Shown: in pieces, positions 1-20,133 of the stretch | Position numbering within the stretch: position 1 is the stretch's first letter | Layout: each line of letters opens with the position of its first letter | Source of the DNA: a virus | DNA length: 20,412 nt | IMG/VR virus record: IMGVR_UViG_3300046804_000947 | Coordinates: 1 to 20,412 of that record | Strand: one strand, 5' to 3' | Made by a program: the position numbers and the translations under genes | The notes under the pieces: model-generated | Databases searched by the model: none | What the model saw: the letters and a program-made list of their open reading frames with translations, nothing else | What the model was told of the DNA's origin: nothing

Positions 1-1462
1 CGTAAACTGCTCCTGTTTCGAAGAAGTTAGAACCTTTGAAGCCCATTAAGATAACGTTCTCTGTCATGTATGGGTTTTTGTAAACGTCATATCTGTTAGA
101 GATAGAACCGATGTTAGTTACACCTGCAGCAAATTGTAAAGCGTCTTTACCAGGATTTGCAGAGAAACCATTCATTGATTCTAAAATTGTAGCTACGTTT
201 GGAGATACTACTACGAAGTTAGCACCACCTCTCATTGTTAACTGATGAATTTTGTTAGATACCTTTTGTAATTTGATACCTAAAGTTTGGAACCATGTGT
301 TCTTTTGATATGCTGATGCAGCTGCTGCATTAGAATCAATTGAGAAACCAGCACCATTCCACTCATATCCTACTTTTGAAGACCAGTATTCAGTTGTGAA
401 TGCGTTTTGCTGTAACATCTCAAGGATTTCTAAATCAATCTCTAAAGAGATGTATTCAGATAACATTTGAGTTAATTCAGCTTCAGCATCTACTGAATGG
501 TATGCATTCAAGTCTTGTGCTAATTCTGGAGTCCAAATTGCTTTCAACTTACGAGTTTTAGCAACGATTGGTTCAGATTTCAATTCTAATTCAACTTCTG
601 GGATTGGTAAGTTTGCACCTCTATCTTCGAAGTCACCTCTAGAGATTGAAGTAGGTTGAACGTGGTAAGCTAATGAAACCTCTACTGTGTTATCATTACC
701 CATACCTGTTGCTTGTGCAACGAATTCAACATTAGAACCATTTTTAGTAGTGTATTGAGGGAAGAAAGTTACAGAACCTGTTAATGATGTTGGTTCAAAA
801 GCTCTTACACCGTTGAAATCAGCATCAGATGGTAATGCAACTACGAATTTTTTCAATGTGTTACCTGCGTAAGATGCAGAAACAGTTGAATTTGTTAAAT
901 CCCAATCAATATCTGCTAAAGATGCAGAAGACATTGTAGCTACAATTGTAGATGTAGCGTTATTGATTGTGTATCCAAATCTACCAGCTCCGTAAAGACC
1001 ACCTTCAGTAGCTTGAGTAGAACCCAATTTGTTACCTGATGGTGCTAAAGAATCTTTACCGAAAGTTCCACCATTACCGAATAATGAAGAACCTGTGAAA
1101 TCTGGATTACCTGCTGGGTTAGAACCATATTTGAAATCCATATAGAAAATAAGACCTGATGGTAAGTTCATTGGTTGTACAGAAACGAATTCTTTAGCAG
1201 CAATGCTACCGAAAATTCTTCTTACCAATGGAAGTGCTACACCAGCCCATTCTTCTGAACCTGCAGAAGTACCAGTTCTTGTTGCTTCATCCAATAATTG
1301 TTTAGCTTGGTTTTCTAACATTACTGCCATACCATGCTTTGAAGTTTCAGAACCAACACCTTCTAAAAGGCCAGTTTTTTCCCACTTGCTTTTCAAACCT
1401 CTAGTTTGCTCAAGCATTATGTTTTGTGGGTTTTTGCCTGTCATAATTTGTTTTAAGTCCAT
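1..1462 (-). CDS. 23: Major capsid protein, T4 gp23-like (C-terminus beyond window)
   Basis: This gene encodes the hexamer-forming shell protein of the head. It is open at the window edge, with 487 residues visible from the ATG at 1462. The central part contains TRKLKAIWTPELAQDLNAYH followed by DAEAELTQMLSEYISLEIDL, the hallmark block of T4-type capsid proteins (T4 itself has RQLKAAYSIELAQDL in the same place). An early VQPMNLPSG matches the T4 VQPMNSPTG element. The N-terminal ~59 residues resemble the T4 delta-peptide that gp21 removes: KWEKTGLLEG parallels T4 KWKPLLEG, and LDE59|A60 sits close to the T4 cleavage position E65|A66. The leader before the ATG is A/T-rich with no Shine-Dalgarno, and only 25 bases separate it from the scaffold stop. 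The identity is very secure. The C-terminal end and any following vertex gene cannot be seen. Confidence 0.96.
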   Translation of the reverse strand, partial: MDLKQIMTGKNPQNIMLEQTRGLKSKWEKTGLLEGVGSETSKHGMAVMLENQAKQLLDEATRTGTSAGSEEWAGVALPLVRRIFGSIAAKEFVSVQPMNLPSGLIFYMDFKYGSNPAGNPDFTGSSLFGNGGTFGKDSLAPSGNKLGSTQATEGGLYGAGRFGYTINNATSTIVATMSSASLADIDWDLTNSTVSASYAGNTLKKFVVALPSDADFNGVRAFEPTSLTGSVTFFPQYTTKNGSNVEFVAQATGMGNDNTVEVSLAYHVQPTSISRGDFEDRGANLPIPEVELELKSEPIVAKTRKLKAIWTPELAQDLNAYHSVDAEAELTQMLSEYISLEIDLEILEMLQQNAFTTEYWSSKVGYEWNGAGFSIDSNAAAASAYQKNTWFQTLGIKLQKVSNKIHQLTMRGGANFVVVSPNVATILESMNGFSANPGKDALQFAAGVTNIGSISNRYDVYKNPYMTENVILMGFKGSNFFETGAVY

Positions 1463-3120: not shown

Positions 3121-3651
3121 TTAACCTTGCTTAAAATAATATTCTTCGTAATGAATAATATCTAATAAATTTGTTGGGTCTATCAATTGTGCAGCATTTA
3201 ACAAATCAGAATATTCAGCTACCGATTGATTTTGTATATTTCTAAATTCCGTTAAGAAATCAAATGTACTAATATCTGTTGTTAAAAGTTTTAATGAATC
3301 ACTATTGTATTTGTTAAATAAATCAAATTCTATTGCATATGATTTATTAACAATATCAATCAAACTACCAAAAGTAATTCCGGGCTTTACTGCTGGCATT
3401 GTTGGAGTAACATTCCAATCAACTAAATATTTTTGTAATTTTTCTGCATGCTCTAATTCATTTTCAGCTTCCGCTTCAAAAAATTTAGCTGCGTTATTAT
3501 AACCTACACCTTTACACCAGTTAGCCGCATTTCTATAAAAAAAGTGAGCAGTATATTCATCTACCAATCTATCATTTAAGATTTGAGTAGATGTACCACT
3601 TAATACTTTTGGCATTATTGGTTTTCCAGTTGTCAACGATTTTGGCGTCAT
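3121..3651 (-). CDS. Ferritin-like iron-storage protein
   Basis: This 176-residue four-helix protein has the length and pattern of bacterial non-heme ferritin. Helix A contains LNDRLVDEYTAHFFYRNAAN with a metal ligand at E32. Helix B contains NAAKFFEAEAENELEHAEKL with E65 and H68; the spacing from E32 (33 and 36 residues) equals that of E17, E50 and H53 in E. coli FtnA. Helix C supplies E108 in SYAIEFD (FtnA E94), and helix D supplies Q140 in FRNIQNQSVAEY (FtnA Q127). The acidic residues of the third iron site (FtnA E49, E126, E129, E130) align with N64, I139, Q142 and S143, so that site looks lost. The role would be oxidation of Fe(II), and possibly mineral storage in a 24-mer. It starts 2 bases after the preceding stop; an in-frame ATG at 3615 (MPKVLSG) is an equally plausible start. 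A ferritin inside a head-gene operon is unusual. Confidence 0.88.
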   Translation of the reverse strand: MTPKSLTTGKPIMPKVLSGTSTQILNDRLVDEYTAHFFYRNAANWCKGVGYNNAAKFFEAEAENELEHAEKLQKYLVDWNVTPTMPAVKPGITFGSLIDIVNKSYAIEFDLFNKYNSDSLKLLTTDISTFDFLTEFRNIQNQSVAEYSDLLNAAQLIDPTNLLDIIHYEEYYFKQG

Positions 3652-3653
3652 TT

Positions 3654-4133
3654 TTATTTAAGTTTATTTTCTAAATCTTTTACAGTTTGTCTTTGTAATT
3701 TTACATCACCATAAGCTTGAGTCATAATTTTTATAAGGTCTTTTTCTAAAGCCTCTATACCACCACCATCAGTAACTCTCTTATCGTTTTTATATTTTTT
3801 AATTTCTTTTTGTGTTTCGGAATGATTTACATATATTTCTGCCATTTTTGCTGGACTAGCTCCAGAATAATATGCATCATTTATTTTTTTAACTATATCA
3901 TCACTACCAACTTTTCTAATTATTTCTTTTTCAGCTGATATAAGTTTGCTATTAAATCCATCTTGGTAATCTGCTACTTTTTCAAAAAGATTTGCTAACC
4001 AAGTTGCAACGAAATAAATACCTAGCGGTTCTAATATAGCACGAAGTAATCCTTCCTCAAGTGTTTTATTTTCTTGTGAATCAACTATTTCGTTTGTTTT
4101 CCATTCATCTTTTATGTGATTAGATAGTTTCAT
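3654..4133 (-). CDS. Unknown head-operon protein with one hydrophobic segment
   Basis: This 159-residue protein is not recognised. Residues 29-50 (LLRAILEPLGIYFVATWLAN and following) form one hydrophobic stretch that could be a membrane helix or a buried amphipathic helix. The rest is charged and helical, ending in a Lys/Glu-rich segment. LEE27|G28, directly before the hydrophobic stretch, fits the T4-type prohead-protease consensus. If it is used, residues 1-27 would be a removable targeting peptide and the product would be an internal head protein. The start overlaps the end of the upstream gene by 14 bases and the stop lies 2 bases before the ferritin start, so translation is probably coupled. 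Function beyond membership of the head operon is unknown. Confidence 0.7.
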   Translation of the reverse strand: MKLSNHIKDEWKTNEIVDSQENKTLEEGLLRAILEPLGIYFVATWLANLFEKVADYQDGFNSKLISAEKEIIRKVGSDDIVKKINDAYYSGASPAKMAEIYVNHSETQKEIKKYKNDKRVTDGGGIEALEKDLIKIMTQAYGDVKLQRQTVKDLENKLK

Positions 4134-4536
4134 TCAATCCCAATCTTTGATTCATTTGTTCTTGAGTAATCTCTGCTATTTCAAAATATCTACCTAATAC
4201 GTGTCCCATATCTTCGTACAAAGCTTCCAATCTTTGTTCTTGTGCTTTTGCTTCTACGGATTCTTTTTCAAATGAAGATTGTAACTTTTTAAGTTCATTC
4301 ATATTTCTCTTAATAGTTACTCTATCAAACCAATCACCACCTTCTCTCAAAGTATATTCTTGTGCAGCATCTGCAATAGCACCTAATGTTTCAGCAACTT
4401 GTCTAATATCAGATTTTCTACTCATAGATTCTCTGTGTTGACCATAAGTTGATATGATTTCTAAAAAATGCTTTTTTAACTCCGATGGAAGTTGTTGCAA
4501 TTCTTCTTCTTTTAATAAATCTTTTAACTTTATCAT
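4120..4536 (-). CDS. Unknown conserved-looking phage protein, helical
   Basis: This 138-residue protein has predicted helical, highly charged sequence. It opens with MIKLKDLLKEEE, a short amphipathic N-terminus of the kind often seen on head-associated proteins of T4-like phages. The middle holds GGDWFDRVTIKRNMNELKKL, the most distinctive block. LRE65|G66 just before it fits the prohead-protease consensus. The ATG overlaps the previous gene's TGA (ATGA), which is typical of translationally coupled phage genes. It could be an internal head or core protein analogous in position to T4 gp67/gp68, but there is no sequence evidence for that. Confidence 0.7.
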   Translation of the reverse strand: MIKLKDLLKEEELQQLPSELKKHFLEIISTYGQHRESMSRKSDIRQVAETLGAIADAAQEYTLREGGDWFDRVTIKRNMNELKKLQSSFEKESVEAKAQEQRLEALYEDMGHVLGRYFEIAEITQEQMNQRLGLNETI

Positions 4537-4811
4537 CTATGTACGATTTTATATTTTTTTAATTTCATCACAGCTTGCTGTAATTCGGAAGGATTCATAT
4601 CTAATGCATCTATTAAAGTTGCAATTACATATTGCTCTTTTTTTCTTGGTAAATTATATTTTTTAACAATACTAACTACTTTATCTAAATATCTTTCTAA
4701 TTGAGTAGGTAGTGTTATATCCATATCATCCAATTCCTCATTCATTTCAGCTTTTGAAAGAACTTTTGCGGTTGTATAATTTTTTGGTATAAAATTTACT
4801 AATTTTGCCAT
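4533..4811 (-). CDS. Small unknown protein following the prohead protease
   Basis: This 92-residue protein has a basic N-terminus (MAKLVNFIPKNY), an acidic stretch at residues 24-32 and a helical C-terminal half with KKEQYVIATLIDALDMNPSE. No family is recognised. It starts 4 bases after the protease stop and its TGA overlaps the next ATG, so it lies within the tightly packed operon. The coding evidence is operon continuity and normal composition; there is no Shine-Dalgarno. Confidence 0.66.
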   Translation of the reverse strand: MAKLVNFIPKNYTTAKVLSKAEMNEELDDMDITLPTQLERYLDKVVSIVKKYNLPRKKEQYVIATLIDALDMNPSELQQAVMKLKKYKIVHR

Positions 4812-4815
4812 TTTA

Positions 4816-5406
4816 TTAATTTAATTCTATTATAATTTCTCTCATTAAATCTTGTGCTCTACACCACTTTCCACATTCTTCTGCTATTTGTTTCCATTGT
4901 TTTGCTTCTTGCAAAGGTGCCATAAATGCACCATGTGTAGATGGATTGGAAACAAAATCCCAACCTACTAATTCGAAATCTTCTTGTACCATCAAAGTAC
5001 CATCATTTAATTCTTTTACTGAACCTAAACCTCTTGATGAAATACCTAAACGAATATTATTTTTTAATAATTCTTTTAATATATTTCCTGATGGTGTGGA
5101 AAGAATTTCAACTTTACCCATTACATCATCACCATCCCACCAAATTTCTCTGATGTTATGTGATACATTCTTTAAATTGATTACTGGAGAATCTGGATGG
5201 TCTAATTCGCCTAATGCTCTACGTTCTTTAATAAGTTGTCCATATTTTTGGCACTCTCTCATTAAAATTTCTTTTGGATATCTTCTATTGTTTTGATTTG
5301 GCGCACCTGCTCTTTGAAGAATACCTTGAACTAAATATGTTCCGTTTTCTTCTTTAACCATTTTGGCTTCGAACAAATGTGTTTCTATCAATAATCCTTT
5401 ATTCAT
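4816..5406 (-). CDS. 21: Prohead core protease, T4 gp21-like
   Basis: This 196-residue serine protease of the T4 gp21/S80 type digests the scaffold and trims head proteins during maturation. The family core is visible: RRYPKEIL (41-48), ALGELDHPDSP with the catalytic His at H70, GISSRGLGSV with the candidate nucleophile among S123/S124, and FELVGWDFVSNPST (144-157) with a candidate third residue at D150. LFE13|A14 and LQE167|A168 fit the enzyme's own LxE|A consensus close to the two ends. T4 gp21 is known to be self-trimmed at both ends, and here the mature form would be residues 14-167. Its ATG overlaps the stop of the upstream gene by one base (TAATG). Identity is secure from motifs and from its position between portal and scaffold. 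Confidence 0.93.
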   Translation of the reverse strand: MNKGLLIETHLFEAKMVKEENGTYLVQGILQRAGAPNQNNRRYPKEILMRECQKYGQLIKERRALGELDHPDSPVINLKNVSHNIREIWWDGDDVMGKVEILSTPSGNILKELLKNNIRLGISSRGLGSVKELNDGTLMVQEDFELVGWDFVSNPSTHGAFMAPLQEAKQWKQIAEECGKWCRAQDLMREIIIELN

Positions 5407-9941: not shown

Positions 9942-11549
9942 TTATCCTAATAACCAATGTAAATTTTCTTTTTCTCCTCTACCCATATCCATTTCATATG
10001 GATTTTGTTTAATATGAGTAGTTGTGTATACTCCTTCGTATTTATTTATTTGTGCGGAGTTTAGCATTTGTTTTGTTAAATCTATACCTTCTTGCTTCAA
10101 TCTTAATGCAGTATTTCTTACCCACAATCCAATACCCAATGCCATTGTAAGGTCATCATTATAACCCTTCATTGCTTCTGCCTTACCATTATTCCAAATA
10201 AACGTAAATAACTCATCTATCAATCTATTAGAACGAATTAAGATATCTTTATCCGTCATATAGGTATCTAATGCTGAAATGATAAGCGGTCTGGTTTTTG
10301 TAGTTGTACTAAATCCTGCAACCATTTTCTTTTCATCTCTATAAAATTTATTACTCATTTGTTTTTCAACATCAATATATTTTAAATCTTGACTCATATA
10401 GAATAAATTTCCATATTGTCTATCAATACATTGTTGAATTGCTGCCCAACCTACATTTGAGTTTTCCACAATAAGTAATGCGTTATTCCATTCGGTTGCA
10501 ACTGCTACTAAAAAGTTTCCAAAATCTTTTGTATCAATTTTACCTCTATATTCTGCAACTTGAGATGAATCTTCTATATCAACTACTTGGAATGTAGAAT
10601 AATCCGAACCATCACCTCTGGCAACGTCGGCAGATATCAAATATTGTCTGTTATAATTTGGATGTTCCCATTTCCAATAGTTTCCATCAAATCCACTTTT
10701 TTCTACAGGTTCCATAACATAGGTATCCTTATACCACATTAATAATTGTGGGTCTATTACGTTATCACCTGAACCAATAAAGTCACAATCACATTCTTGT
10801 GCTGCTCCTTTGTGTCCTAAAATACGGGTTTGTTCATCTCTCCATTCTTGATTTCTTTCTGGGTGTACAGTCCAATGCAGTTTAATACAATTGAAACCAT
10901 TTACACCACTTTCACCATCAACCCACATTTTGTGAAACCAGTTACCAATACCATTTGGAGTAGATAATACTACAGCAGCACCACCCGTTGATAAAGTAGA
11001 TTGTGCTGATAGCCAAATTTCATCAATATCTCTAATGAATGCGGCCTCATCGACAACTAATAGTGATAAGGCTTCCGAACGTCCGGCATCTGGAGAAGAT
11101 GCAATTGCTTTTACTTGCGAACCATTTTTTAATTTAAGCGATAGTTTATTATCTTCGACAGATGAGTTACCACCATCTCTTAACCAAACAGGAAGCAAAT
11201 CGTGCATTACTCTTACCTTTTCTACAAGGTTTTTTGCTACCGTCACTTTAGTTGCGATAACCAATGCATTGAAATCCTGATTAAATAACATTTTCCAAAG
11301 AATGAAACCAGCAGAAAGTGTGGATAAACCCAACTGTCTACTTTTAAGGATGATATTAAAACGATTGTTTTTAAAATCCGTTAAACAATTCTCCTGGAAA
11401 GGATAAAGGTGAAAGGGTATTTTTCCTCTCACCGGATGCTGAATTACACAATATTTTTTCATAAAGTAAATGGGGTCGGAACCACACTTACGATATTCAT
11501 CAGCAATTATCTCTTTAAGGGTTTTCTTTGGTTGCCCTTGAACTGACAT
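9942..11549 (-). CDS. 17: Terminase large subunit, T4 gp17-like
   Basis: This 535-residue DNA-packaging motor has an N-terminal ATPase and a C-terminal RNase H-like nuclease. The ATPase shows SRQLGLST (70-77) as Walker A, LLVVDEAAF (163-171) as Walker B with catalytic E168, and the coupling motif STPNG (196-200). The nuclease shows ISADVARGDGSDY with D308, LLIVENSNVG with E362, and YNDDLTMA with D465/D466, giving the expected acidic triad. The Walker A lacks the usual Lys before Ser/Thr: T4 has SRQLGKTT and this protein has a Leu there. The ATG overlaps the preceding stop by one base (TAATG). No small terminase subunit is recognised beside it. Confidence 0.96.
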   Translation of the reverse strand: MSVQGQPKKTLKEIIADEYRKCGSDPIYFMKKYCVIQHPVRGKIPFHLYPFQENCLTDFKNNRFNIILKSRQLGLSTLSAGFILWKMLFNQDFNALVIATKVTVAKNLVEKVRVMHDLLPVWLRDGGNSSVEDNKLSLKLKNGSQVKAIASSPDAGRSEALSLLVVDEAAFIRDIDEIWLSAQSTLSTGGAAVVLSTPNGIGNWFHKMWVDGESGVNGFNCIKLHWTVHPERNQEWRDEQTRILGHKGAAQECDCDFIGSGDNVIDPQLLMWYKDTYVMEPVEKSGFDGNYWKWEHPNYNRQYLISADVARGDGSDYSTFQVVDIEDSSQVAEYRGKIDTKDFGNFLVAVATEWNNALLIVENSNVGWAAIQQCIDRQYGNLFYMSQDLKYIDVEKQMSNKFYRDEKKMVAGFSTTTKTRPLIISALDTYMTDKDILIRSNRLIDELFTFIWNNGKAEAMKGYNDDLTMALGIGLWVRNTALRLKQEGIDLTKQMLNSAQINKYEGVYTTTHIKQNPYEMDMGRGEKENLHWLLG

Positions 11550-12847
11550 TACTTCTTAACTTTAATTTTCCAATATGTTCCAAAATTGATAAATGGTGAA
11601 AGAGAACCATTAGTTCCATCAACGGTTCTATTTGCAACACCTATACCAAATTCGTATATTTTATCTTTTTTGGTTTTTAACATCAATCCAGCTCCAACGT
11701 GAGATACAACATCTGCTTTATTAAATCCACCATTTAAACCATAATATACTTGATTTTTTGGTAATTCTTTTACAATAAGAGTTTCTTTAATTTCTCTTTG
11801 TTTTACTTTAGCATCAAATGTTCTACCTAAAATTCTATTTTTAGTAATTGTATCTACTAATGCAATTATTCCTAATGAATCTGGTAAATGTAATGTATCT
11901 TTGTAAATTACTTTAGATAAATAATCTTTAAGAATTGCTGCAGAGTCAACGTTTACTAATTCTTTAAGTACTAAAGTATCTACATCAATTACTTCGTGTA
12001 TAATATCTTTTCCTTTTTTAGTTACTACTTTTTCTTTAACAACCTCTACGGTGTCAATTTCATGTTTAATAACTTCATATTTTTTACCATCAATTTTGAC
12101 AGTTTTTCCTGGTATAATTCCACCTGGGTTGCAAGTTTGTAAATAAACCCAAATAAGTAATACCGCAATAGCAATGTTTTTAAAATTTAATAATTTTTTC
12201 ATAATTAATTTTTGTAACTTATTTTCTAACAATCCTTTTCTTTGCAATAGTAGTTCTAATGCATCATATGAATTATCAATATCATTTTTAAGGTCCTTCT
12301 TTACCTTATCTATATCTATATCCCATTTCCAATTTTCAATTTGTCCGTTTTCATAAACCATTTGATAATCGGTTGTTATATATTTTAAACTATCTTCTAA
12401 TTTTTGTTTATAATCTCTTAACCAACCAATTTTATTACAAGTAATTTTGTAATCTTCATAGTATGGCCAAGTTCCATCATCTTTTAATTTTTGTTCGTTT
12501 TTGTGATTACATACAACACAATATCCGGTTCTAACAATTAGTTTTTTATCGGCTTGTGAGTATAAATCCGTATCACATTCTTCATTTTTACAAGTTGTAA
12601 GTTTTTTAAGATATTCTCTAACATCATCTAATTTATTGACCGATGCTCTAAATCCTTCTCTTTGTTCCCACGTTTTTCCATCACTATCTGTCCAAACTTC
12701 TCCAACTTCTCTTTTTTTATCACTCTGCCCTTCGTAACCAAAAACTCTCTGGGTGTTATCTTCTCTACCAAACACGGTATCAATAATCTTTTTACGAGAT
12801 TTGTGAATGTGTTTGTTTTTTTGGTCCCAACTTGTTCTTTTTTGCAT
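11549..12847 (-). CDS. Zinc-ribbon protein fused to an exported, barrel-like protein (apparent fusion)
   Basis: This 432-residue frame looks like two genes. Residues 1-215 are soluble, with WTDSDGKTWEQREGF (52-66) and a zinc-ribbon-like C86/C91/C110/C113 set, then a charged helical end. Residues 216-432 restart with MKKLLNFKNIAIAVLLIWVY and LQTC, a textbook signal or anchor with a possible lipobox cysteine at 239. A Thr/Val-rich extended region follows, and then a C-terminal ~65 residues of alternating Gly/aromatic strands (YYGLNGGFN, GAGLMLK, YEFGIGVANR, SPFINFGTYWKIKV) like an outer-membrane beta-barrel. ATG 12202 begins the second part. Just before it, deleting one A of the A5 run (12209-12213) would create TAA-TT-ATG, the same junction as ferritin/bS21. 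The parts are therefore either separate genes joined by a one-base change or error, or a true fusion. Functions are unknown; the second part could act at the cell envelope, for example in lysis. Confidence 0.72.
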   Translation of the reverse strand: MQKRTSWDQKNKHIHKSRKKIIDTVFGREDNTQRVFGYEGQSDKKREVGEVWTDSDGKTWEQREGFRASVNKLDDVREYLKKLTTCKNEECDTDLYSQADKKLIVRTGYCVVCNHKNEQKLKDDGTWPYYEDYKITCNKIGWLRDYKQKLEDSLKYITTDYQMVYENGQIENWKWDIDIDKVKKDLKNDIDNSYDALELLLQRKGLLENKLQKLIMKKLLNFKNIAIAVLLIWVYLQTCNPGGIIPGKTVKIDGKKYEVIKHEIDTVEVVKEKVVTKKGKDIIHEVIDVDTLVLKELVNVDSAAILKDYLSKVIYKDTLHLPDSLGIIALVDTITKNRILGRTFDAKVKQREIKETLIVKELPKNQVYYGLNGGFNKADVVSHVGAGLMLKTKKDKIYEFGIGVANRTVDGTNGSLSPFINFGTYWKIKVKK

Positions 12848-12877
12848 AATTTTATATATTTTTGTAACTAATTGTTT

Positions 12878-12885
12878 TATTTATA
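12878..12885 (-). promoter_or_regulatory. T4-type late promoter box TATAAATA
   Basis: The minus strand reads GATATATATAAATAAAAC in the 50-base gap between the 1500-residue gene and the next gene. It contains an exact T4 late-promoter box, TATAAATA. The box ends 30 bases before ATG 12847, which would give a short leader of about 20 bases. It stands at the head of the packaging module, where a late promoter makes sense. In so AT-rich a sequence a chance match is possible. Confidence 0.5.
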
Positions 12886-12897
12886 TATATCAAAGTA

Positions 12898-15800
12898 TTA
12901 TTCATAAAATATACCTAATATTTGATTAAGTGGTGCAAATGTGCCTGTAAGTTTATAAGTTTTTCCATTATAAAAGAAAACTATTCCTTCATTTGCAACT
13001 ATCTTATCCACCCCACCTAATTGATTTAATCTACTTAATTCTGTTTTTAATTTTTGAATTTTAGATGGGTCTCCACCACTTCTAACTTGTGCAGCTACAC
13101 TTTTTAATTTTGCTTTCATTGAACGGATTGCTTTTTCAGGATGAACTGTTAATACTGAACTAACAAATTCTAATACATCCGCACCAACACCTAAAAATAT
13201 TTCCTCAAATGGTTTGATATTATCTTTTTGCTGTTTTGCAACATTTACTTTATCATTATTTACTGCCCACTCTTGTAATTTAGGATTTGTAATCGTATTT
13301 AATCTTAAACTTTTATCACCAAATGCCCATCTTCTAACTAATGCCTCTTTTGTAAGTTTATCAACTTTAATAGGCGCTTTTTCATCTATAAAATTTTCCC
13401 ACCAGCTTTGATGATATAAAGAAATTGTATCATTATCATTTAATCCAAATTCCGATTGTAATTTTTTTAATTTAGAAATATATTTTCCTTGTTTTGAACT
13501 TAATTCATCACTTTTAGGAATTTCCGTTACCGGTGGTCCCTGTATAGTATATTTCGATTGGATATCAGCATTTACTTGCTTAATCATTCCTGCTAACATA
13601 CTAGCAGCTCCTTGATTTGCACCTGTTGGAGAACCTTTTTCATCATAACAAGTTGTATTATGAAATATTAATAATGCTTGTCCATAAGGGATAACATTTA
13701 CCGATGTCGGCCATATTACTTCCAAATTCATAAAACATTGCCCTTCATTGAATATCTTTTTTCTTTGTGCATCAGATAAACCACTTATTGCTGCTGATAA
13801 ATCTTTCATTGCGTAATTATAAGCATCGGTTAAACCACCTCTACCTGCAAATTTAGATGCAACATCTTCAATACCCATTGCGTTTGCTCCAGCATTTGCT
13901 AAATGTCCTTTATTTCTAGCAGCAATTAATCTACCATTTTTCCAACTGATTGCTAATGCTTGTCCATCTGTTTTTTCTCTAACTACACCCAATTCACCAT
14001 TAAGTGCACCTGTAATAATATTCTTTAAATCACCAAATGTCAAATCCATATCATCAAATGGATGACTCATATGCCCATATGCTCCACCTTCGGTAATAAC
14101 TTTTTTTCCAATTTTATTTTTTCTTATTGGAAAATCCGTTTCCATATCATCATCCGTTCTTGCAACATTTTTAACTTTATATGAAACTGTATATTGATTT
14201 TGGTCCTCTGCTCCATATATTGCATCTGCTACAGGAAAATCCGTTTGAGTATATCCACCATTTGTATACCAATCATCACTTTTATTTACACCATCATCTG
14301 CTCCTAATTTTCTAGCATGTCCTTTTGGTAAATAACCACCATCTGGTTGAGAATCATCGCCGGCCATTGCACTAACTTCATCAAGATTTGGTCTAATATT
14401 TAATTCCTTTTCCATTTGAGTAATATCATCATATCCCATATTTCTCAATGCTCTTGCAACATCATTTGCTTTATATCCATTTGGATTTCCAAAAAGATAT
14501 GCATTTATTCTTTTTCTAAATTTTGCATCTCTATATAATTTAATCATATTTGCAAAATGAATATCTTTACTACCCATTTCATCCAATGTCCTAAATGTAG
14601 TTGCTTGTTTTCCATTAATTGTTGGCATTCCGTGGTCATCGGTTCCAATATTTTTAACGGTAACTTTTTTATTTTTAAATTTACCCATTAATACGGTATC
14701 ACCTTTATCAACATCTACATTAACATCTTCTGTATAAATTTTTTTATTCTTTTTTCCAAATTCTCTTAAAAGTATTCCTGCCACTGCGTTTGCTTGATTT
14801 TCAACAGGTGAACCAGTTTTACCAGCTTCCATTGGATTTTTAATCAATCCCATTTCATCTTGCTTTCTATGAATCATTTCATGTGCAATAGTTCTTAAAA
14901 TATCTGCACCCAATCTTTTATCACATTGAACAAATATTTCTTTTGATTCAGGATTATATCCACCCAATGAAGATTGTTCATTTGAATATTCTTGTCCACT
15001 TAAAAGAGTTATTTTTGGTCTTTCTTCTAATTTTAATCTTTCGGTTGCATAATCAACAAAATCGTTTATGAATTGTTTTTTTACATCTGACATTGTTTCA
15101 TTTAAACTTTCTTCTTCCGGTTCGGTTTCTCCTGTTTCAGGATCATGATGTGCAAAAGTCTGATGCCAAATTTTAGATTTTTCAATTGCTCTTGCAGGAT
15201 TTAATTTATCTATTTTTTGTTGAACGGTTAATTTTCTATTAAACATTCCTGTAGATGGAACATAGTGTTCTTCTTCCATTTGGAATTTATTTAACATCTT
15301 TTTATTATTCCAACTATCCACAATATTTTCAACCACTTCAGGAGTTAATTTCATATTTTGTAATCGTTCCGCAATTGCTCCTGCAAATATGTTCAATGCA
15401 GTTGCTTCATCAACACCTTCGGCAAACATTGCTGCCTTTCCAACTCCACCTATTAACACTTCACCAATTGCATGTGGTACTAATTCTGCAGCTACGTGTT
15501 TTGCAAATGCAGCTGCTCCATGTGCAAGTCCACCACCTGCGGCCGCCATCACAGCTGTTACTGCTATTTTTTTACCAACCGATAACATTGCCTTTTTATC
15601 GTGGTCATCTAATTTTTTTCCACTCATCAATTTCATTACACCACTACCTGCAGCTTTAAATTCTTGAGCTTCATGTTTTAATCCATGCATAATAGCATGT
15701 CCTGCACCTTTTGCTTTATCCATTATAGCTTGGCCCCAACTTCTTCTTTCATCGTGTCCTTCTTTTTTATTAAGGATTTTGCTAAAAGTTTCCTTTTCTT

Positions 15801-17400
15801 CTTTACTCCAATTTTTTAATTTACTATGTAATCTTTTTACAACGTGCTCTTTTGAATCACCATTTTTTTCTTTTTCGGCTCTATGTTCTGCATCTGATTT
15901 TAATTCTACCCCACTTAATTTTTGTTCAGGTGGAGGTCCTTGTTCTTTCCCAGGTTCTCCTACTGGTTTAGATGTATCAGTTTTACCTTGTGCAGTTTGT
16001 CCTTTTTTAACAGGTTGGCCTGGTTGTGCAGGTTTTGCTGCAGCTTGCGCTGCTTTTCCAGGTTCTTCTTTTCGTTTTGGTTCGTTTGCAGGAGCATCAT
16101 CCGGTCCTGCTATTTTTGCAGCCTGTATGTGTGCTGGATGGTCTTTGGGTAATCTTAAAGCATCTCTGGCTTTAATTTTCTTTTGTTTGCCATCAGCGGA
16201 TGTATATGTAATATCCGTATCCAATGCTTTGTTTGGAGCTTCACCCAAATATTCCATCAACCATTCTTCAAACATTTCATTAGTGATGTATCTGTCTATG
16301 ATTTCTGAAATTGGGTCATATAAATTTTCTTCATTAATATTTCTAGCATAATTCATAGTTCCATCTACATCTGGTGGGTAAATATTTACAGGCCTTTGAT
16401 TATATGGATACATTTCCCATTTTTCTGCTTTATCTTTTGCATACTCCGGTCCTTTTGATGGGTGTATAACTCTTTTTAGTTCACCATTTTCATCTTTTGG
16501 ATTATTTGCAGGTAAATAAACATCTCCCGTTTTTTGTTTATGAAAATTAGAATCATGCCCTAACATTGTATATCCTACTATTTCTGCATGGTTTTGTCCC
16601 GCAGTATCAAATGGTGTCCAATCTCCCATCCAAGGTGAACGGAAACTTTGGTCATCCAATGTACCATCAGCTGTATTACCACCTTCTTCATTTAAGAATG
16701 TTTTATTATCAAAATATTCTTGTAAAAATTTTGCAAATTCTTGTTCTGCTATACTTTCATTTGAACCCGTGGGTGCACCATTAATATATCCTCCCGGAAG
16801 GTTTAGTCCAACGCCTGTACCACCTGGAAATTCTTCATTAAGTTTTCCTGTTATCATTTTAAATACTTCTTTATCAAATTTTGGATATGCTTTTAAAAAA
16901 CCCTTTTTAGCTTTTTCTTTATCAGTAGTACCTAACCATTTACGAACATCAGTTCCACTAATAGGATTTTGTTCTGCAGGTACTGGGTATACATAACCAA
17001 TTTCATCATAACCATATCCTGCTTTATTTTTATATGGTTTGAAATATTTTCCTTGCAATCTAGTTGCATCTTTTTCACCCACAGCTGCAATGTATTGCGT
17101 TGTTTGTCCATCAAACTTTTTAAGAATTTCTACCGGCTGATATGGGTTTTTTATTTGAATGAATTTATTTGAAGGTACTCCAAACATTTTCGTTGCAATT
17201 TCTTTCTTCTCTTTAAATGAAAATGGCGATTTTGGACCAGATTGGTCATTAGATGTACCAATATAAACATTACCTTCACCAAATTTAGAAACCAGTTTCG
17301 CATAAGATGCATAATGTCCTTTGTGGAATGGTTGAAATCTTCCTGAATATACAACTACTACTTTTTTTACTTCTGGTTTATTTACTTCGATTAAATTCAT
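12898..17400 (-). CDS. Giant multidomain protein: nucleotidyltransferase, metalloprotease-like and ligase-like domains
   Basis: This is a 1500-residue protein. Residues 12-185 form a HxGH nucleotidylyltransferase of the NMN adenylyltransferase/cytidylyltransferase type: SGRFQPFHKGHY with H26 and H29, and ISGTDVRKWL (147-156) as the second phosphate-binding motif. Residues 200-390 are of unknown fold. Residues 430-500 are a Pro/Ala/Lys/Gln-rich linker. Residues 605-665 are Gly/Ala-rich and hydrophobic. Residues 770-885 contain RTIAHEMIHRKQDE, an HExxH zinc-protease motif (H840, E841, H844), and ENQANA with a possible third ligand E867. Residues 1105-1500 resemble the covalent nucleotidyltransferase core of DNA/RNA ligases: motif I EKTDGQ (K1143), ARNKG (R1162), MNLEVIW (E1227), EGIVF (1471-1475) and YKLTG (K1483). 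ITE1104|G1105 and LGE387|A388 fit the prohead-protease consensus. It starts 21 bases downstream of a 42-residue gene. Domain calls are by motif; activities are unproven. Confidence 0.85.
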   Translation of the reverse strand: MNLIEVNKPEVKKVVVVYSGRFQPFHKGHYASYAKLVSKFGEGNVYIGTSNDQSGPKSPFSFKEKKEIATKMFGVPSNKFIQIKNPYQPVEILKKFDGQTTQYIAAVGEKDATRLQGKYFKPYKNKAGYGYDEIGYVYPVPAEQNPISGTDVRKWLGTTDKEKAKKGFLKAYPKFDKEVFKMITGKLNEEFPGGTGVGLNLPGGYINGAPTGSNESIAEQEFAKFLQEYFDNKTFLNEEGGNTADGTLDDQSFRSPWMGDWTPFDTAGQNHAEIVGYTMLGHDSNFHKQKTGDVYLPANNPKDENGELKRVIHPSKGPEYAKDKAEKWEMYPYNQRPVNIYPPDVDGTMNYARNINEENLYDPISEIIDRYITNEMFEEWLMEYLGEAPNKALDTDITYTSADGKQKKIKARDALRLPKDHPAHIQAAKIAGPDDAPANEPKRKEEPGKAAQAAAKPAQPGQPVKKGQTAQGKTDTSKPVGEPGKEQGPPPEQKLSGVELKSDAEHRAEKEKNGDSKEHVVKRLHSKLKNWSKEEKETFSKILNKKEGHDERRSWGQAIMDKAKGAGHAIMHGLKHEAQEFKAAGSGVMKLMSGKKLDDHDKKAMLSVGKKIAVTAVMAAAGGGLAHGAAAFAKHVAAELVPHAIGEVLIGGVGKAAMFAEGVDEATALNIFAGAIAERLQNMKLTPEVVENIVDSWNNKKMLNKFQMEEEHYVPSTGMFNRKLTVQQKIDKLNPARAIEKSKIWHQTFAHHDPETGETEPEEESLNETMSDVKKQFINDFVDYATERLKLEERPKITLLSGQEYSNEQSSLGGYNPESKEIFVQCDKRLGADILRTIAHEMIHRKQDEMGLIKNPMEAGKTGSPVENQANAVAGILLREFGKKNKKIYTEDVNVDVDKGDTVLMGKFKNKKVTVKNIGTDDHGMPTINGKQATTFRTLDEMGSKDIHFANMIKLYRDAKFRKRINAYLFGNPNGYKANDVARALRNMGYDDITQMEKELNIRPNLDEVSAMAGDDSQPDGGYLPKGHARKLGADDGVNKSDDWYTNGGYTQTDFPVADAIYGAEDQNQYTVSYKVKNVARTDDDMETDFPIRKNKIGKKVITEGGAYGHMSHPFDDMDLTFGDLKNIITGALNGELGVVREKTDGQALAISWKNGRLIAARNKGHLANAGANAMGIEDVASKFAGRGGLTDAYNYAMKDLSAAISGLSDAQRKKIFNEGQCFMNLEVIWPTSVNVIPYGQALLIFHNTTCYDEKGSPTGANQGAASMLAGMIKQVNADIQSKYTIQGPPVTEIPKSDELSSKQGKYISKLKKLQSEFGLNDNDTISLYHQSWWENFIDEKAPIKVDKLTKEALVRRWAFGDKSLRLNTITNPKLQEWAVNNDKVNVAKQQKDNIKPFEEIFLGVGADVLEFVSSVLTVHPEKAIRSMKAKLKSVAAQVRSGGDPSKIQKLKTELSRLNQLGGVDKIVANEGIVFFYNGKTYKLTGTFAPLNQILGIFYE

Positions 17401-17555: not shown

Positions 17556-18098
17556 TTAATTTTTATAATATAATTCAGGCCATTCTACTATGATATGAAC
17601 CCCACCTTGCTCATAAGCTTCGGTATATATTCTATAAATATCTTCTATTTGTTTTAATTTATGAACTTTTGTAAATTGAAGTATTGATTCAAATTCATCG
17701 GTATAATCATTTCTATGTTGAATTCCTGGATCTAAAGGGTCTTTACTACCAACACCAACTCTAACTATTATGTTAGCCTTTTTACCGGTCATATGTTCAA
17801 ATTTATCAGCATGATTAATTAATTGATTTGCAGCTGATACTAAAAAATCCCAACGGGGATAAAATGATATTACAGTTTTACCCGTAATTGCCAACCCCAA
17901 ACTCATTCCCATTTGAGTTTCTTCCATAACAGGCACTTCAATCATTTTTTCTTTTGGAACATCTCCCAATGTTGTACTCATTGGATTTCCTGCATAAACT
18001 ATTTGTTGTCCAATAAAGATGGTATCTTCTTTTTCAGCAAGAAATTTCATTGCTTTACTTAATTCATCTTTATATGGTGACATTTGTGGAGCACTCAT
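17556..18098 (-). CDS. Thiamin-diphosphate enzyme domain, half of a pyruvate dehydrogenase E1 beta/transketolase-type subunit
   Basis: This 180-residue protein corresponds to the pyrimidine-binding (Pyr) domain of 2-oxo-acid dehydrogenase E1 beta and transketolase-like enzymes. E59 in EVPVMEETQMGMSLGLAITG aligns with the conserved Glu that activates the ThDP cofactor. YPRWDFLVSAANQLINHADK (80-99) matches the E1 beta helix that follows. The C-terminal transketolase domain of E1 beta (~120 residues) is absent, yet the gene ends cleanly with TAA and no remnant follows, so it is a single-domain version. A partner carrying the pyrophosphate-binding domain is not in the window. It overlaps the epimerase stop by one base (TAATG), which suggests action on the same sugar pathway, for instance a two-carbon or amino-sugar modification. 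Substrate is unknown. Confidence 0.8.
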   Translation of the reverse strand: MSAPQMSPYKDELSKAMKFLAEKEDTIFIGQQIVYAGNPMSTTLGDVPKEKMIEVPVMEETQMGMSLGLAITGKTVISFYPRWDFLVSAANQLINHADKFEHMTGKKANIIVRVGVGSKDPLDPGIQHRNDYTDEFESILQFTKVHKLKQIEDIYRIYTEAYEQGGVHIIVEWPELYYKN

Positions 18099-19090
18099 TA
18101 TGGTCTTGAATTTGGATTATATAAATGTTTATTTTCTTTATACCACTCAATTGTTTCTTTTAGTGCCTGTTTTAGATTTCTCTTTGGTTTCCAACCCATG
18201 TCATTAATTTTTTTAGATGACATTAATCTAACAGGAATCATAGGTGCTTTATTATTCACATATTCAACTGGATTATTATTGTTATCCGCTTCTTTAATCC
18301 ATCCTAATACTTCATTTACACTAAATCCTTCACCATAACAAACATTAAAAATATTATATGTATCGTTGTTTTCTGCTACAAAAATAAAACCATCTGCCAT
18401 ATCTTCAACATGCAATAAATCTCTCACTTCCGTACCATCACCCCAAACTGGAATTGGATTTAAACCATCTGCTACTTTTCTGATGTTTGCAGGAGTAACG
18501 TGACATTTTTCATAATCAAATTTATCGTTAGGTCCGAATGCGTTTGAAGGTCTAACAATCAAACATTGCATTGGATTGTGGATTTGGTTTGAGAAGAAAT
18601 GACAAAGTAATTCACCATATCTTTTCATATTACCAACTGCTCCGTAAATTGGGAATGTTGGTGTCGCATGTACATTAATATCTTCTGTACAAAAATCACT
18701 ACCCATATCAGGATAAGATGTGTTAGATGAAATAAATAGGAATTTACCAACTTTATTTCTCCAACTTTGTTCCATTAAGTTTACATTCATTTCCACATTT
18801 GGAGTAACATGTAATAATGGATTCTCTTTTGTATCTAATGCATTTGATGTGTTTGCTGCACAATGAAATACAACATTTACATCCGTTGATACTTCTTTAC
18901 AAAAATCAGCATCTTGTAAATTTCCTTTATAAAATTCAACTTCGGATGTTCCTTCGAAATCGTTTTTTAAATCTCTACTATAAGATGTTGCTCTTAAGTT
19001 TCTATATCCTTTTTCCCATAATAATCTTAATAGGTGTGAGCCGATAAAACCACTTGCTCCTGTGACTAAAATTTTGTCTGTTTTTTTCAT
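18098..19090 (-). CDS. NAD-dependent sugar-nucleotide epimerase/dehydratase (extended SDR)
   Basis: This 330-residue protein is of the size and architecture of nucleotide-sugar epimerases and GDP-fucose-synthase-like enzymes. The N-terminal Rossmann motif is TGASGFIGS (10-18). NVVFHCAANTS follows, then the active-site serine region FISSNTSYPDMG. The catalytic Tyr is Y150 in PIYGAVGNMKRYGELL. The usual Lys four residues on is replaced here by Gly, with a Lys at +7 (K157), so the spacing is Y-x6-K. Late motifs RPSNAFGPNDKFD and GDGTEVRDLLHVEDMADG are typical of substrate-binding loops. It lies 5 bases after the SGNH gene and overlaps the E1-beta-like gene by one base, so they probably form one pathway. 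The exact reaction cannot be told from sequence. Confidence 0.88.
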   Translation of the reverse strand: MKKTDKILVTGASGFIGSHLLRLLWEKGYRNLRATSYSRDLKNDFEGTSEVEFYKGNLQDADFCKEVSTDVNVVFHCAANTSNALDTKENPLLHVTPNVEMNVNLMEQSWRNKVGKFLFISSNTSYPDMGSDFCTEDINVHATPTFPIYGAVGNMKRYGELLCHFFSNQIHNPMQCLIVRPSNAFGPNDKFDYEKCHVTPANIRKVADGLNPIPVWGDGTEVRDLLHVEDMADGFIFVAENNDTYNIFNVCYGEGFSVNEVLGWIKEADNNNNPVEYVNNKAPMIPVRLMSSKKINDMGWKPKRNLKQALKETIEWYKENKHLYNPNSRP

Positions 19091-19095
19091 AATTT

Positions 19096-20133
19096 TTATT
19101 TAAAAATATCCCAATTTAATACAACTTCGTTTACGAATTTTTTAGTAAGAATTGCTGATGTGTGTCCGTACCAACTTCTTTCTAAATATTTCTTTTGCTC
19201 ATTTAAATTCATACCATTCATTTCTCTCCACAATACTTTTGGTAAATCTCCATCCATATTATAATCAAAATTTCTAATTGACCATTCAATTAGACCACCA
19301 AACAAATGTAATGAATTTTCTTCAAAAAACCAAAAATATTTTTTAAAATCAATTTTATCCGCATATGATTTTACATATGAATTTTCAAAATATAATTCTT
19401 TTTGTTCCCAAGTATCACAAATATCTTTATTTTCTATAATACATTCGTATATAGATTTTTCTTTTGGAGTATGATAGTATGGTGGTGTTCTACCCTCATT
19501 CAAATATTTTTTACTAAAATTATTATTCATACAAAAGAATTTTATTTTATTAATTCCATTTATATGAAGAAAATTTAAAAGCATATTAATATATTCAAAC
19601 CATTCAAAATATCTTTCATTATAAGTCATTATCTTATCAAGCCATTCAAAAGTAACTGAATCTATATTGATTGGATTGTTAGTTGGATTAAATCCACCTG
19701 TTAGGTGAAAATACCCTTGTTGGTATGGTGATGTTTTATCTTTTCCATTTATTAAATAATCAGTAGTGTGTGCCCAACTTTCATTGTATTTTTGATATCG
19801 TAAAGCTGGATTTACTGTTTCGTATTTTTCAGGAGTTATAAAAAAAGAATTTCTTGTAAGCGTTGTCCATTGTGCTATTACAATAATATCATCCGGTTTA
19901 ATTCCTTCTTTTAATAAATCAGAAACTTTGTAAATAATAGACCTAACAATACTTTTATTATCATGTGTTAGTGCTCCGTAATTGTGTAAAACATATTCAT
20001 CTTTTAAATAATGTTGTAACCAATTTGCCCACGTCCATTCTTCTATTGGGTCATTCTCCCATCTTCTTTCATCACCTATATTAATTCTAAAATTATTTGT
20101 GAAAGAACATCCTGATACTACTATGTGTTTCAT
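19096..20133 (-). CDS. SGNH/GDSL-hydrolase-like protein
   Basis: This 345-residue protein opens with MKHIVVSGCSFTNNF, where GCSFT is the block I nucleophile motif of SGNH-type esterases (Ser11). A block II-like LHNYGALTHDNKS and a block III-like IVIAQWTTLTRN follow. Near the C-terminus SWYGHTSAILTKKF supplies a candidate catalytic His. The central ~200 residues are aromatic- and Asn-rich and not recognised. Such proteins in phages usually act on acyl groups of glycans, and this one sits next to an epimerase. It overlaps the upstream SGNH-like gene by four bases (ATGA). The block II/III residues deviate from classic forms, so enzymatic activity is uncertain. Confidence 0.74.
   Translation of the reverse strand: MKHIVVSGCSFTNNFRINIGDERRWENDPIEEWTWANWLQHYLKDEYVLHNYGALTHDNKSIVRSIIYKVSDLLKEGIKPDDIIVIAQWTTLTRNSFFITPEKYETVNPALRYQKYNESWAHTTDYLINGKDKTSPYQQGYFHLTGGFNPTNNPINIDSVTFEWLDKIMTYNERYFEWFEYINMLLNFLHINGINKIKFFCMNNNFSKKYLNEGRTPPYYHTPKEKSIYECIIENKDICDTWEQKELYFENSYVKSYADKIDFKKYFWFFEENSLHLFGGLIEWSIRNFDYNMDGDLPKVLWREMNGMNLNEQKKYLERSWYGHTSAILTKKFVNEVVLNWDIFK

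Follow-up and report, generated by a model that had tools for sequence, protein, structure and literature searches.

Is the 1500-residue protein encoded near the head genes of a T4-like phage one large enzyme, or a precursor that is taken apart? This question is raised by IMG/VR virus record IMGVR_UViG_3300046804_000947, of which positions 1 to 20,412 were analysed (20,412 nucleotides; this whole stretch is referred to as the window). The window covers part of the genome of a freshwater T4-like phage. Its module-chain coding sequence (P0001, 1500 residues) occupies 12898..17400 on the minus strand, which is the strand of every window feature given below. The frame starts with ATG and contains no internal stop, in agreement with an earlier sequence-only reading that had described it as uninterrupted. 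The chain is most likely a precursor rather than one enzyme, with an L/I-x-E motif at each module boundary and a set of modules that varies among relatives. We consider it probable that the chain is a head polyprotein that would be packaged and cleaved at L/I-x-E by the S77 prohead protease, its enzymes then being injected together.

L/I-x-E motifs at the module boundaries

Relatives of the chain were encoded on 426 IMG/VR stretches, and the 80 best of these were retrieved. The homologues come from metagenomic contigs, and related sequences among them lack independence. The order of modules in full-length relatives was constant, with a nucleotidyltransferase followed by a peptidase and a ligase-like module, while the middle of the chain was variable and was lost in relatives of approximately 900-980 residues. 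Given relatives on 426 stretches, and a shared module order in those of full length, the long frame is not an artefact. A search of phage records with the whole 1500-residue chain as query returned only 6 records, 0 of them at 80% coverage, and a search of IMG/VR with the huge-phage chain LR756508 as query gave no match.

The T4 prohead protease gp21 cleaves following the Glu of L/I-X-E, and Asp in place of the Glu keeps the IPIII targeting peptide of T4 from being processed (PMC9026906). In the window chain, such tripeptides end at residues 5, 189, 238, 387, 768 and 1104, placing them at the N-terminus, at module edges and in linkers; further ones occur elsewhere in the chain. The first (residues 3-5, 17386..17394; LIE↓VNKP, the arrow marking the end of the motif here and below) forms a propeptide-like start, so that the N-terminal start of the fused window chain is just 5 residues, MNLIE↓. 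This motif was present at 21/21 distinct homologue N-termini with constant spacing despite the loss of one residue (MNLINE/MNLNE), in a set chosen by a pattern expecting E or K near the start, such that only the L or I at P3 is independent. LNE189↓EFPGG (16834..16842) closes module 1, and LNE238↓EGG (16687..16695) and LGE387↓APN (16240..16248) lie in the linker. LNE768↓TMSD (15097..15105) directly precedes the peptidase fold, and ITE1104↓GGAYGHM (14089..14097) marks the ligase boundary, in a region of low model confidence that is probably disordered.

Within a 12-residue boundary interval, the motif was found in 38/43 distinct flanks at the end of the nucleotidyltransferase, 26/33 at the start of the peptidase and 80/84 at the start of the ligase-like module. 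Directly before the ligase-like module it was present in 81/85 distinct flanks and in 38 of the 42 flank clusters at <40% identity, against a background of 3%; decoy tripeptides with D, K, Q, S, N or A replacing E occurred there in 0-1/85. The boundary motif has a fixed Glu at P1, L or I at P3 and a free P2. In the models of the ligase-like and peptidase modules, it lies in an arm just beyond the fold, where the predicted local distance difference test score (pLDDT) is <50. Short relatives without residues ~200-765 retained L/I-x-E motifs, and relatives without a peptidase module had the motif just as well (Mel-JY01, whose chain joins a nucleotidyltransferase and a ligase module, and the marine chains).

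Three modules with predicted enzyme functions

Module 1 (residues 6-189; 16834..17385) is an HxGH nucleotidyltransferase of the CTP_transf_like/PHROG 395 type. It matched PHROG 395 cytidyltransferase (7.8e-14) and Pfam CTP_transf_like (PF01467) at 25.0 bits, over a gathering cut-off of 21, and carries the HxGH and ISGT motifs within GRFQPFHKGH (20-29) and ISGTDVR (147-153). Its best relatives in the PDB were nicotinamide mononucleotide (NMN) adenylyltransferases (2.6e-6). The module scored below every cut-off of the NCBIfam NMN adenylyltransferase (NMNAT) equivalogs NadM, NadR and NadD, the best being 26.4 versus 127 bits. Because all of these cut-offs were missed, despite NMN adenylyltransferases being the best PDB relatives, no substrate was assigned to this module.

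Module 2 (residues 769-905; 14686..15096) is, by its model and structure matches, an HExxH...E zinc metallopeptidase of the gluzincin type, with HEMIH at 840-844 followed by Glu867. The H-E...H residues and an E-N pair were invariant in 26 peptidase sequences that are 29-71% identical. The model (pLDDT 76; predicted template modelling score, pTM, 0.71) showed a zincin fold, in which the HExxH helix is joined by a second helix with the likely third-ligand Glu (helices 77-95 and 111-130). Foldseek matched it to minigluzincins (probability 1.0), PprI/IrrE (0.99) and a DNA-protein crosslink protease (0.97), and VIA-align gave Z scores of 9.7 to the YbeY-type 1oz9 and 9.1 to the crosslink protease 6mdx. 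Pfam searches gave weak M78 matches in 6/26 members (best 8.9e-4). The module thus shares the HExxH helix and the downstream Glu helix with minigluzincins, IrrE-PprI (M78) and Wss1-SprT (Z 7-9.7), at a sequence identity of 13-20% and with no single family prominent. Overlapping its end is a small KOW/SH3-like piece (residues ~891-938; 14587..14730; KGDTVLMGKFKNKK...HGMPTING) that recurs in marine relatives, including before their kinase module, and in the HTVC008M gene AGE60462. Upstream of the peptidase, a Gly/Ala-rich hydrophobic stretch (residues ~590-730; 15211..15633) is optional, missing from short relatives and perhaps membrane related. A comparable hydrophobic stretch precedes the ligase of the marine chain L087.

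Module 3 (residues 1105-1500; 12901..14088) was assigned as an RNA-ligase-like covalent nucleotidyltransferase by motifs, model and profiles. It contains KTDG (1143-1146), RNKGH (1162), NLEVIWPTSVNVIPY (1225), EGIVF (1471-1475) and YKLTG (1482-1486); K-x-D-G is thus accompanied by the conserved motifs III, IV and V that mark RNA ligases. In an alignment of sequences 36-86% identical to that of the window, the invariant positions were Glu53, Lys54, Asp56 and Gly57 (K-x-D-G), E138, E382-G383 and K394. The 30 top Foldseek matches of the model (pLDDT 78, pTM 0.68) were all ligases and nearly all RNA ligases, and VIA-align gave Z scores of 5.2-5.8 to T4 Rnl2, Naegleria Rnl, Palaeococcus Rnl and T4 Rnl1. 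Pfam RNA_ligase was matched weakly by 11/25 members (best E 0.0059) and other families by ≤2 members. Comparison by hhalign with T4 RNA ligase 1 (gp63, RnlA) was weak (P 0.049) and paired motifs I-III, with KTDG against KEDG, RNKGHL against KSKGSI, and NLEVIWPTSVNVIPY against NFEFVAPTNRIVLAY; comparison with T4 Rnl2 (P 0.067) covered the KxDG region only, and the control comparison with the T4 gp30 DNA ligase (P 0.55) left the ligase motif region unaligned. A sequence-only search of the PDB with the ligase and peptidase profiles gave 0 relevant matches. An NAD+-dependent DNA ligase was rejected, since LigA domain families were absent (0) among the matches of 25 members at E up to 5 and the structure matches are to ATP-type ligases. 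The module therefore resembles T4 Rnl1/Rnl2 and archaeal Rnl, and covalent nucleotidyl transfer is its predicted activity.

The sequence-only reading had named HxGH, ISGT, HExxH, KTDG and EGIVF, along with the downstream Glu and the late Lys, and these were found where it had placed them. It had also proposed that a single chain joins three enzyme-like domains, and each of these now has family or fold support. Short motifs of this kind are weak evidence alone, as KxDG appeared in 60%, HxGH in 6% and HExxH in 4% of shuffles of the chain protein; it is their conservation among relatives that makes them credible. The same reading had speculated that the first domain makes NAD (nicotinamide adenine dinucleotide) for a last domain that uses it. 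This functional link is unsupported because the last module is RNA-ligase-like rather than like NAD+-dependent DNA ligases and the first misses the NMNAT equivalog cut-offs.

Stand-alone modules, virion proteins and head genes

T4 internal proteins (IPs) IPII and IPIII start with MKTYQEFIAE↓A, the known T4 capsid targeting sequence (PMC9026906). Similar starts were found on modules of the chain family that occur alone. A lone ligase module of a huge phage starts MKFLKSYEEFLNE↓NLILE↓GGSYGH, and the lone peptidase module of Synechococcus phage B23 and its relatives starts MNYKQFLRE↓ST or MFYKQFLVE↓SK. The lone kinase module starts MIPFILKE↓GLYDPGIFK in HTVC008M and MKTFAELQE↓GVYDPNIFK in Melnitz. 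Lone modules share IP-like starts, and the internal motifs of the fused chain would therefore match the processed N-termini of internal head proteins that are made singly.

Module content varied among the fused chains. In marine relatives the ligase-like module stays C-terminal and the others are swapped, with a P-loop kinase (AAA_33, PHROG polynucleotide kinase), an HD domain (PF01966, 2.4e-8), a Zn_protease (PF05618) domain and KOW/SH3-like pieces among the additions. Known phage RNA-repair sets include a kinase, an HD-like phosphatase and an RNA ligase (PMC7824862). The cultured phage immuto encodes a 907-residue chain of nucleotidyltransferase and zinc peptidase, immuto136C_182, with LAE↓ preceding its nucleotidyltransferase. 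Genes next to each other in immuto (12609-13909) start MADNFNLRSFLTE↓NKLTKNAQLLKE↓ and MENFDLKKFLVE↓NKLTTNSKILKE↓, which are near-identical double-motif leaders on different proteins.

Relatives of the nucleotidyltransferase module have been found in virions. Published virion mass spectrometry detected a cytidylyltransferase (T4-GC190) together with gp21 in S-SM1 (PMC3037559) and NMNAT-like or cytidylyltransferase proteins in S-CBWM1, S-SZBM1, S-SCSM1 and S-CREM2 (PMC10665884, PMC9602691). The authors raise possible encapsidation and, in the passages covered, do not mention a targeting peptide (PMC3037559, PMC9602691, PMC10665884). The S-SM1 T4-GC190 protein starts MKKFSAFLNE↓A, and the cytidylyltransferase/NMNAT-like protein of S-SZBM1 starts MRFRQFIIE↓A. 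Delivery with the virion, which the sequence-only reading had proposed, is thus supported by the virion proteins related to module 1, by the capsid-targeting-like starts of lone relatives and by the prohead-protease motifs at the boundaries.

The virion cytidylyltransferase gene is adjoined by the core cyanophage gene T4-GC71, which is annotated as hypothetical (1302-2534, 4010-5230 and 37296-38270 in loci L180, L201 and L202, respectively). Its product has the ligase-like motifs KWDG, EGYVAV/EGFVTV and VKLVDR, and relatives in 469 phage records. GC71 was first supposed to belong to the ligase family of the window and was then kept apart as a different KWDG protein, the likeness being one of motifs alone.

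A protease of the required type is encoded nearby. The prohead core protease gene (Peptidase_S77, T4 gp21 family; 4816..5406; PF03420, 6.8e-32) lies ~7 kb from the chain gene in the same gene cluster, and the protease was encoded in 6/6 relatives tested. Its own N-terminus carries LIE↓THLFE↓. The same-strand gene set comprises the terminase, portal, Peptidase_S77 prohead protease, scaffold-like protein and major capsid protein genes. The major capsid protein (2..1462) has QLLDE↓ATRTG, that is, L/I-x-E↓A at the expected propeptide position, although the propeptides compared across loci amount to a single distinct sequence. A small head-region protein (4120..4536) has a capsid-targeting-like start, MIKLKDLLKE↓E. 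In a 209-kb relative (G001), several unrelated genes at 27484-27837, 40611-41618 and 153364-153792 start M(I/L)KLKDLLKE↓E; this shared start is probably a common capsid-targeting peptide, which would list further internal head proteins.

Among cultured phages, Flavobacterium phage immuto (52%) and Microcystis phage Mel-JY01 (51%) have the nearest terminases. The gene for a ferritin-like protein (PF00210, 1.7e-19), at 3121-3651, has the capsid gene on one side and the protease gene on the other. A 432-residue protein (11549-12847), encoded between the chain and the terminase, has one hydrophobic, membrane-span-like segment; a family search with it gave no match, and a part similar to its N-terminus adjoins the chain of Mel-JY01. 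Upstream of the chain, a transketolase-pyrimidine-binding-like fragment (17556-18098), an NAD-dependent epimerase (18098-19090) and a DUF6071-like protein (19096-20133) possibly form a small sugar-modification cassette. PADLOC gave no match to the window chain protein.

Proposed mechanism, alternatives and known systems

In the mechanism that we propose, the chain would be made late, together with the head proteins, and capsid-targeting-like segments would bring it into the prohead core. There the S77 prohead protease would cut at the L/I-x-E motifs of the N-terminus and of each module boundary. The nucleotidyltransferase, the zinc peptidase and the RNA-ligase-like enzyme would thereby come free within the head and enter the host alongside the DNA. 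Their likely job would be to take the host over early and to carry out repair. The ligase, joined in marine relatives by a kinase or HD module for end healing, would reseal RNA that defence nucleases of the host had cut; the peptidase would cleave some protein of the host, and NAD or a different nucleotide would be the substrate of the nucleotidyltransferase. For the broader proposal, that lake and ocean T4-like phages use true head polyproteins whose swappable modules carry their own motifs, are cut in the capsid and are injected as an RNA-repair and take-over kit preceding phage expression, we judge the balance to be close to even.

Several observations weigh against a cleaved and injected enzyme set. 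L/I-x-E is short and is found in other proteins too, and its linker-wide enrichment was only 1.57-fold (0.79-fold within modules). The exact-boundary motif was missing from 4/42 ligase-boundary clusters (LLM twice, LLC and IQS), and V or M replaced L/I in 4/8 kinase boundaries. The fold match of the ligase-like module was modest (Foldseek E 4.5e-3, VIA-align Z ≤5.8), and the published virion mass spectrometry covers only relatives of the nucleotidyltransferase module. Many marine relatives have GPHH where the window has HKGH, a substitution by which the nucleotidyltransferase may be non-catalytic in some of them.

These points can be read in favor of other explanations. The short motif and its modest enrichment, together with the conserved GGAYGHM that follows it at the ligase boundary, would suit an ordinary intracellular fusion enzyme produced late in infection, in which L/I-x-E tripeptides are merely conserved domain edges or helix caps. 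We consider this quite unlikely, as the tripeptide lies in a low-confidence arm beyond both folds, is constrained at P1 and P3 but not at P2, and recurs at four unrelated boundaries. Moreover, lone homologues have T4-like capsid-targeting starts, and nucleotidyltransferase relatives were detected in virions (PMC3037559, PMC9602691, PMC10665884). The change of HKGH to GPHH, and family scores under the curated cut-offs for specific enzymes, would fit three degenerate structural or scaffold pieces kept for head assembly without enzyme activity. This we hold to be very improbable, given that the ligase Lys, Asp and Gly and the peptidase HExxH and Glu are invariant down to ~30-36% identity.

A rather unlikely explanation, in our judgment, is that the chain is a single multidomain injected "polyvalent protein" whose own zinc peptidase may free the domains after injection, with the head protease uninvolved. 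The peptidase module of the window is intact, and effectors with embedded metallopeptidases are known, with autoproteolytic release proposed (PMC5512222). However, the boundary motif is one that suits the prohead protease, relatives without a peptidase module have it equally, and lone modules carry the N-terminal motif though they need no self-cleavage between modules.

If the head polyprotein reading is true, the particle itself would deliver RNA repair, preceding gene expression, against tRNA-cutting defences. The proposal would unite T4 capsid targeting, the NMNAT-like virion proteins of cyanophages and phage RNA-repair enzymes in one mechanism. As a sequence rule, L/I-x-E at module edges could find injected enzymes among unknown phage genes, and a natural system for packing several enzymes might be of use in phage-head protein delivery. 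No paper on a phage polyprotein, or on a polyprotein with a prohead protease, was found among open-licence PMC papers.

Parts of this arrangement are found in known systems. The T4-GC190 protein belongs to the same nucleotidyltransferase superfamily as module 1, has a capsid-targeting-like LNE↓A start and is detected in virions, but unlike module 1 it is not fused to a peptidase or ligase. Pelagibacter phage HTVC008M encodes a ligase-like KWDG protein, a KOW piece, a polynucleotide-kinase-like protein and a nucleotidyltransferase side by side (AGE60461-AGE60464); several of these have L/I-x-E starts, as in the window chain, but they are separate genes rather than a fused chain. T4 RNA ligase 1, which the ligase-like module resembles, has an N-terminus without an IP-like capsid-targeting start. 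Polyvalent proteins, as described by Iyer et al. 2017 (PMC5512222), are multidomain effectors encoded near portal and terminase genes, with embedded metallopeptidases and, in the passages covered, proposed autoproteolytic release. The window chain is likewise a multi-effector polypeptide adjoining packaging genes and including a zinc peptidase. In contrast to those proteins as described there, it stands among T4-type head genes, carries boundary motifs for a head protease acting in trans, and belongs to a family whose domain set comprises nucleotidyltransferase, RNA-ligase-like, kinase and HD modules. T4 IPI-III and Alt share with the window chain the L/I-x-E motif, a head gene cluster and an S77 protease, and the short N-terminal targeting peptide of the T4 IPs is matched in the stand-alone relatives of the window modules. 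T4 packs single-module proteins that are cut near their termini, whereas the window chain fuses several predicted enzymes, with a motif for each boundary.

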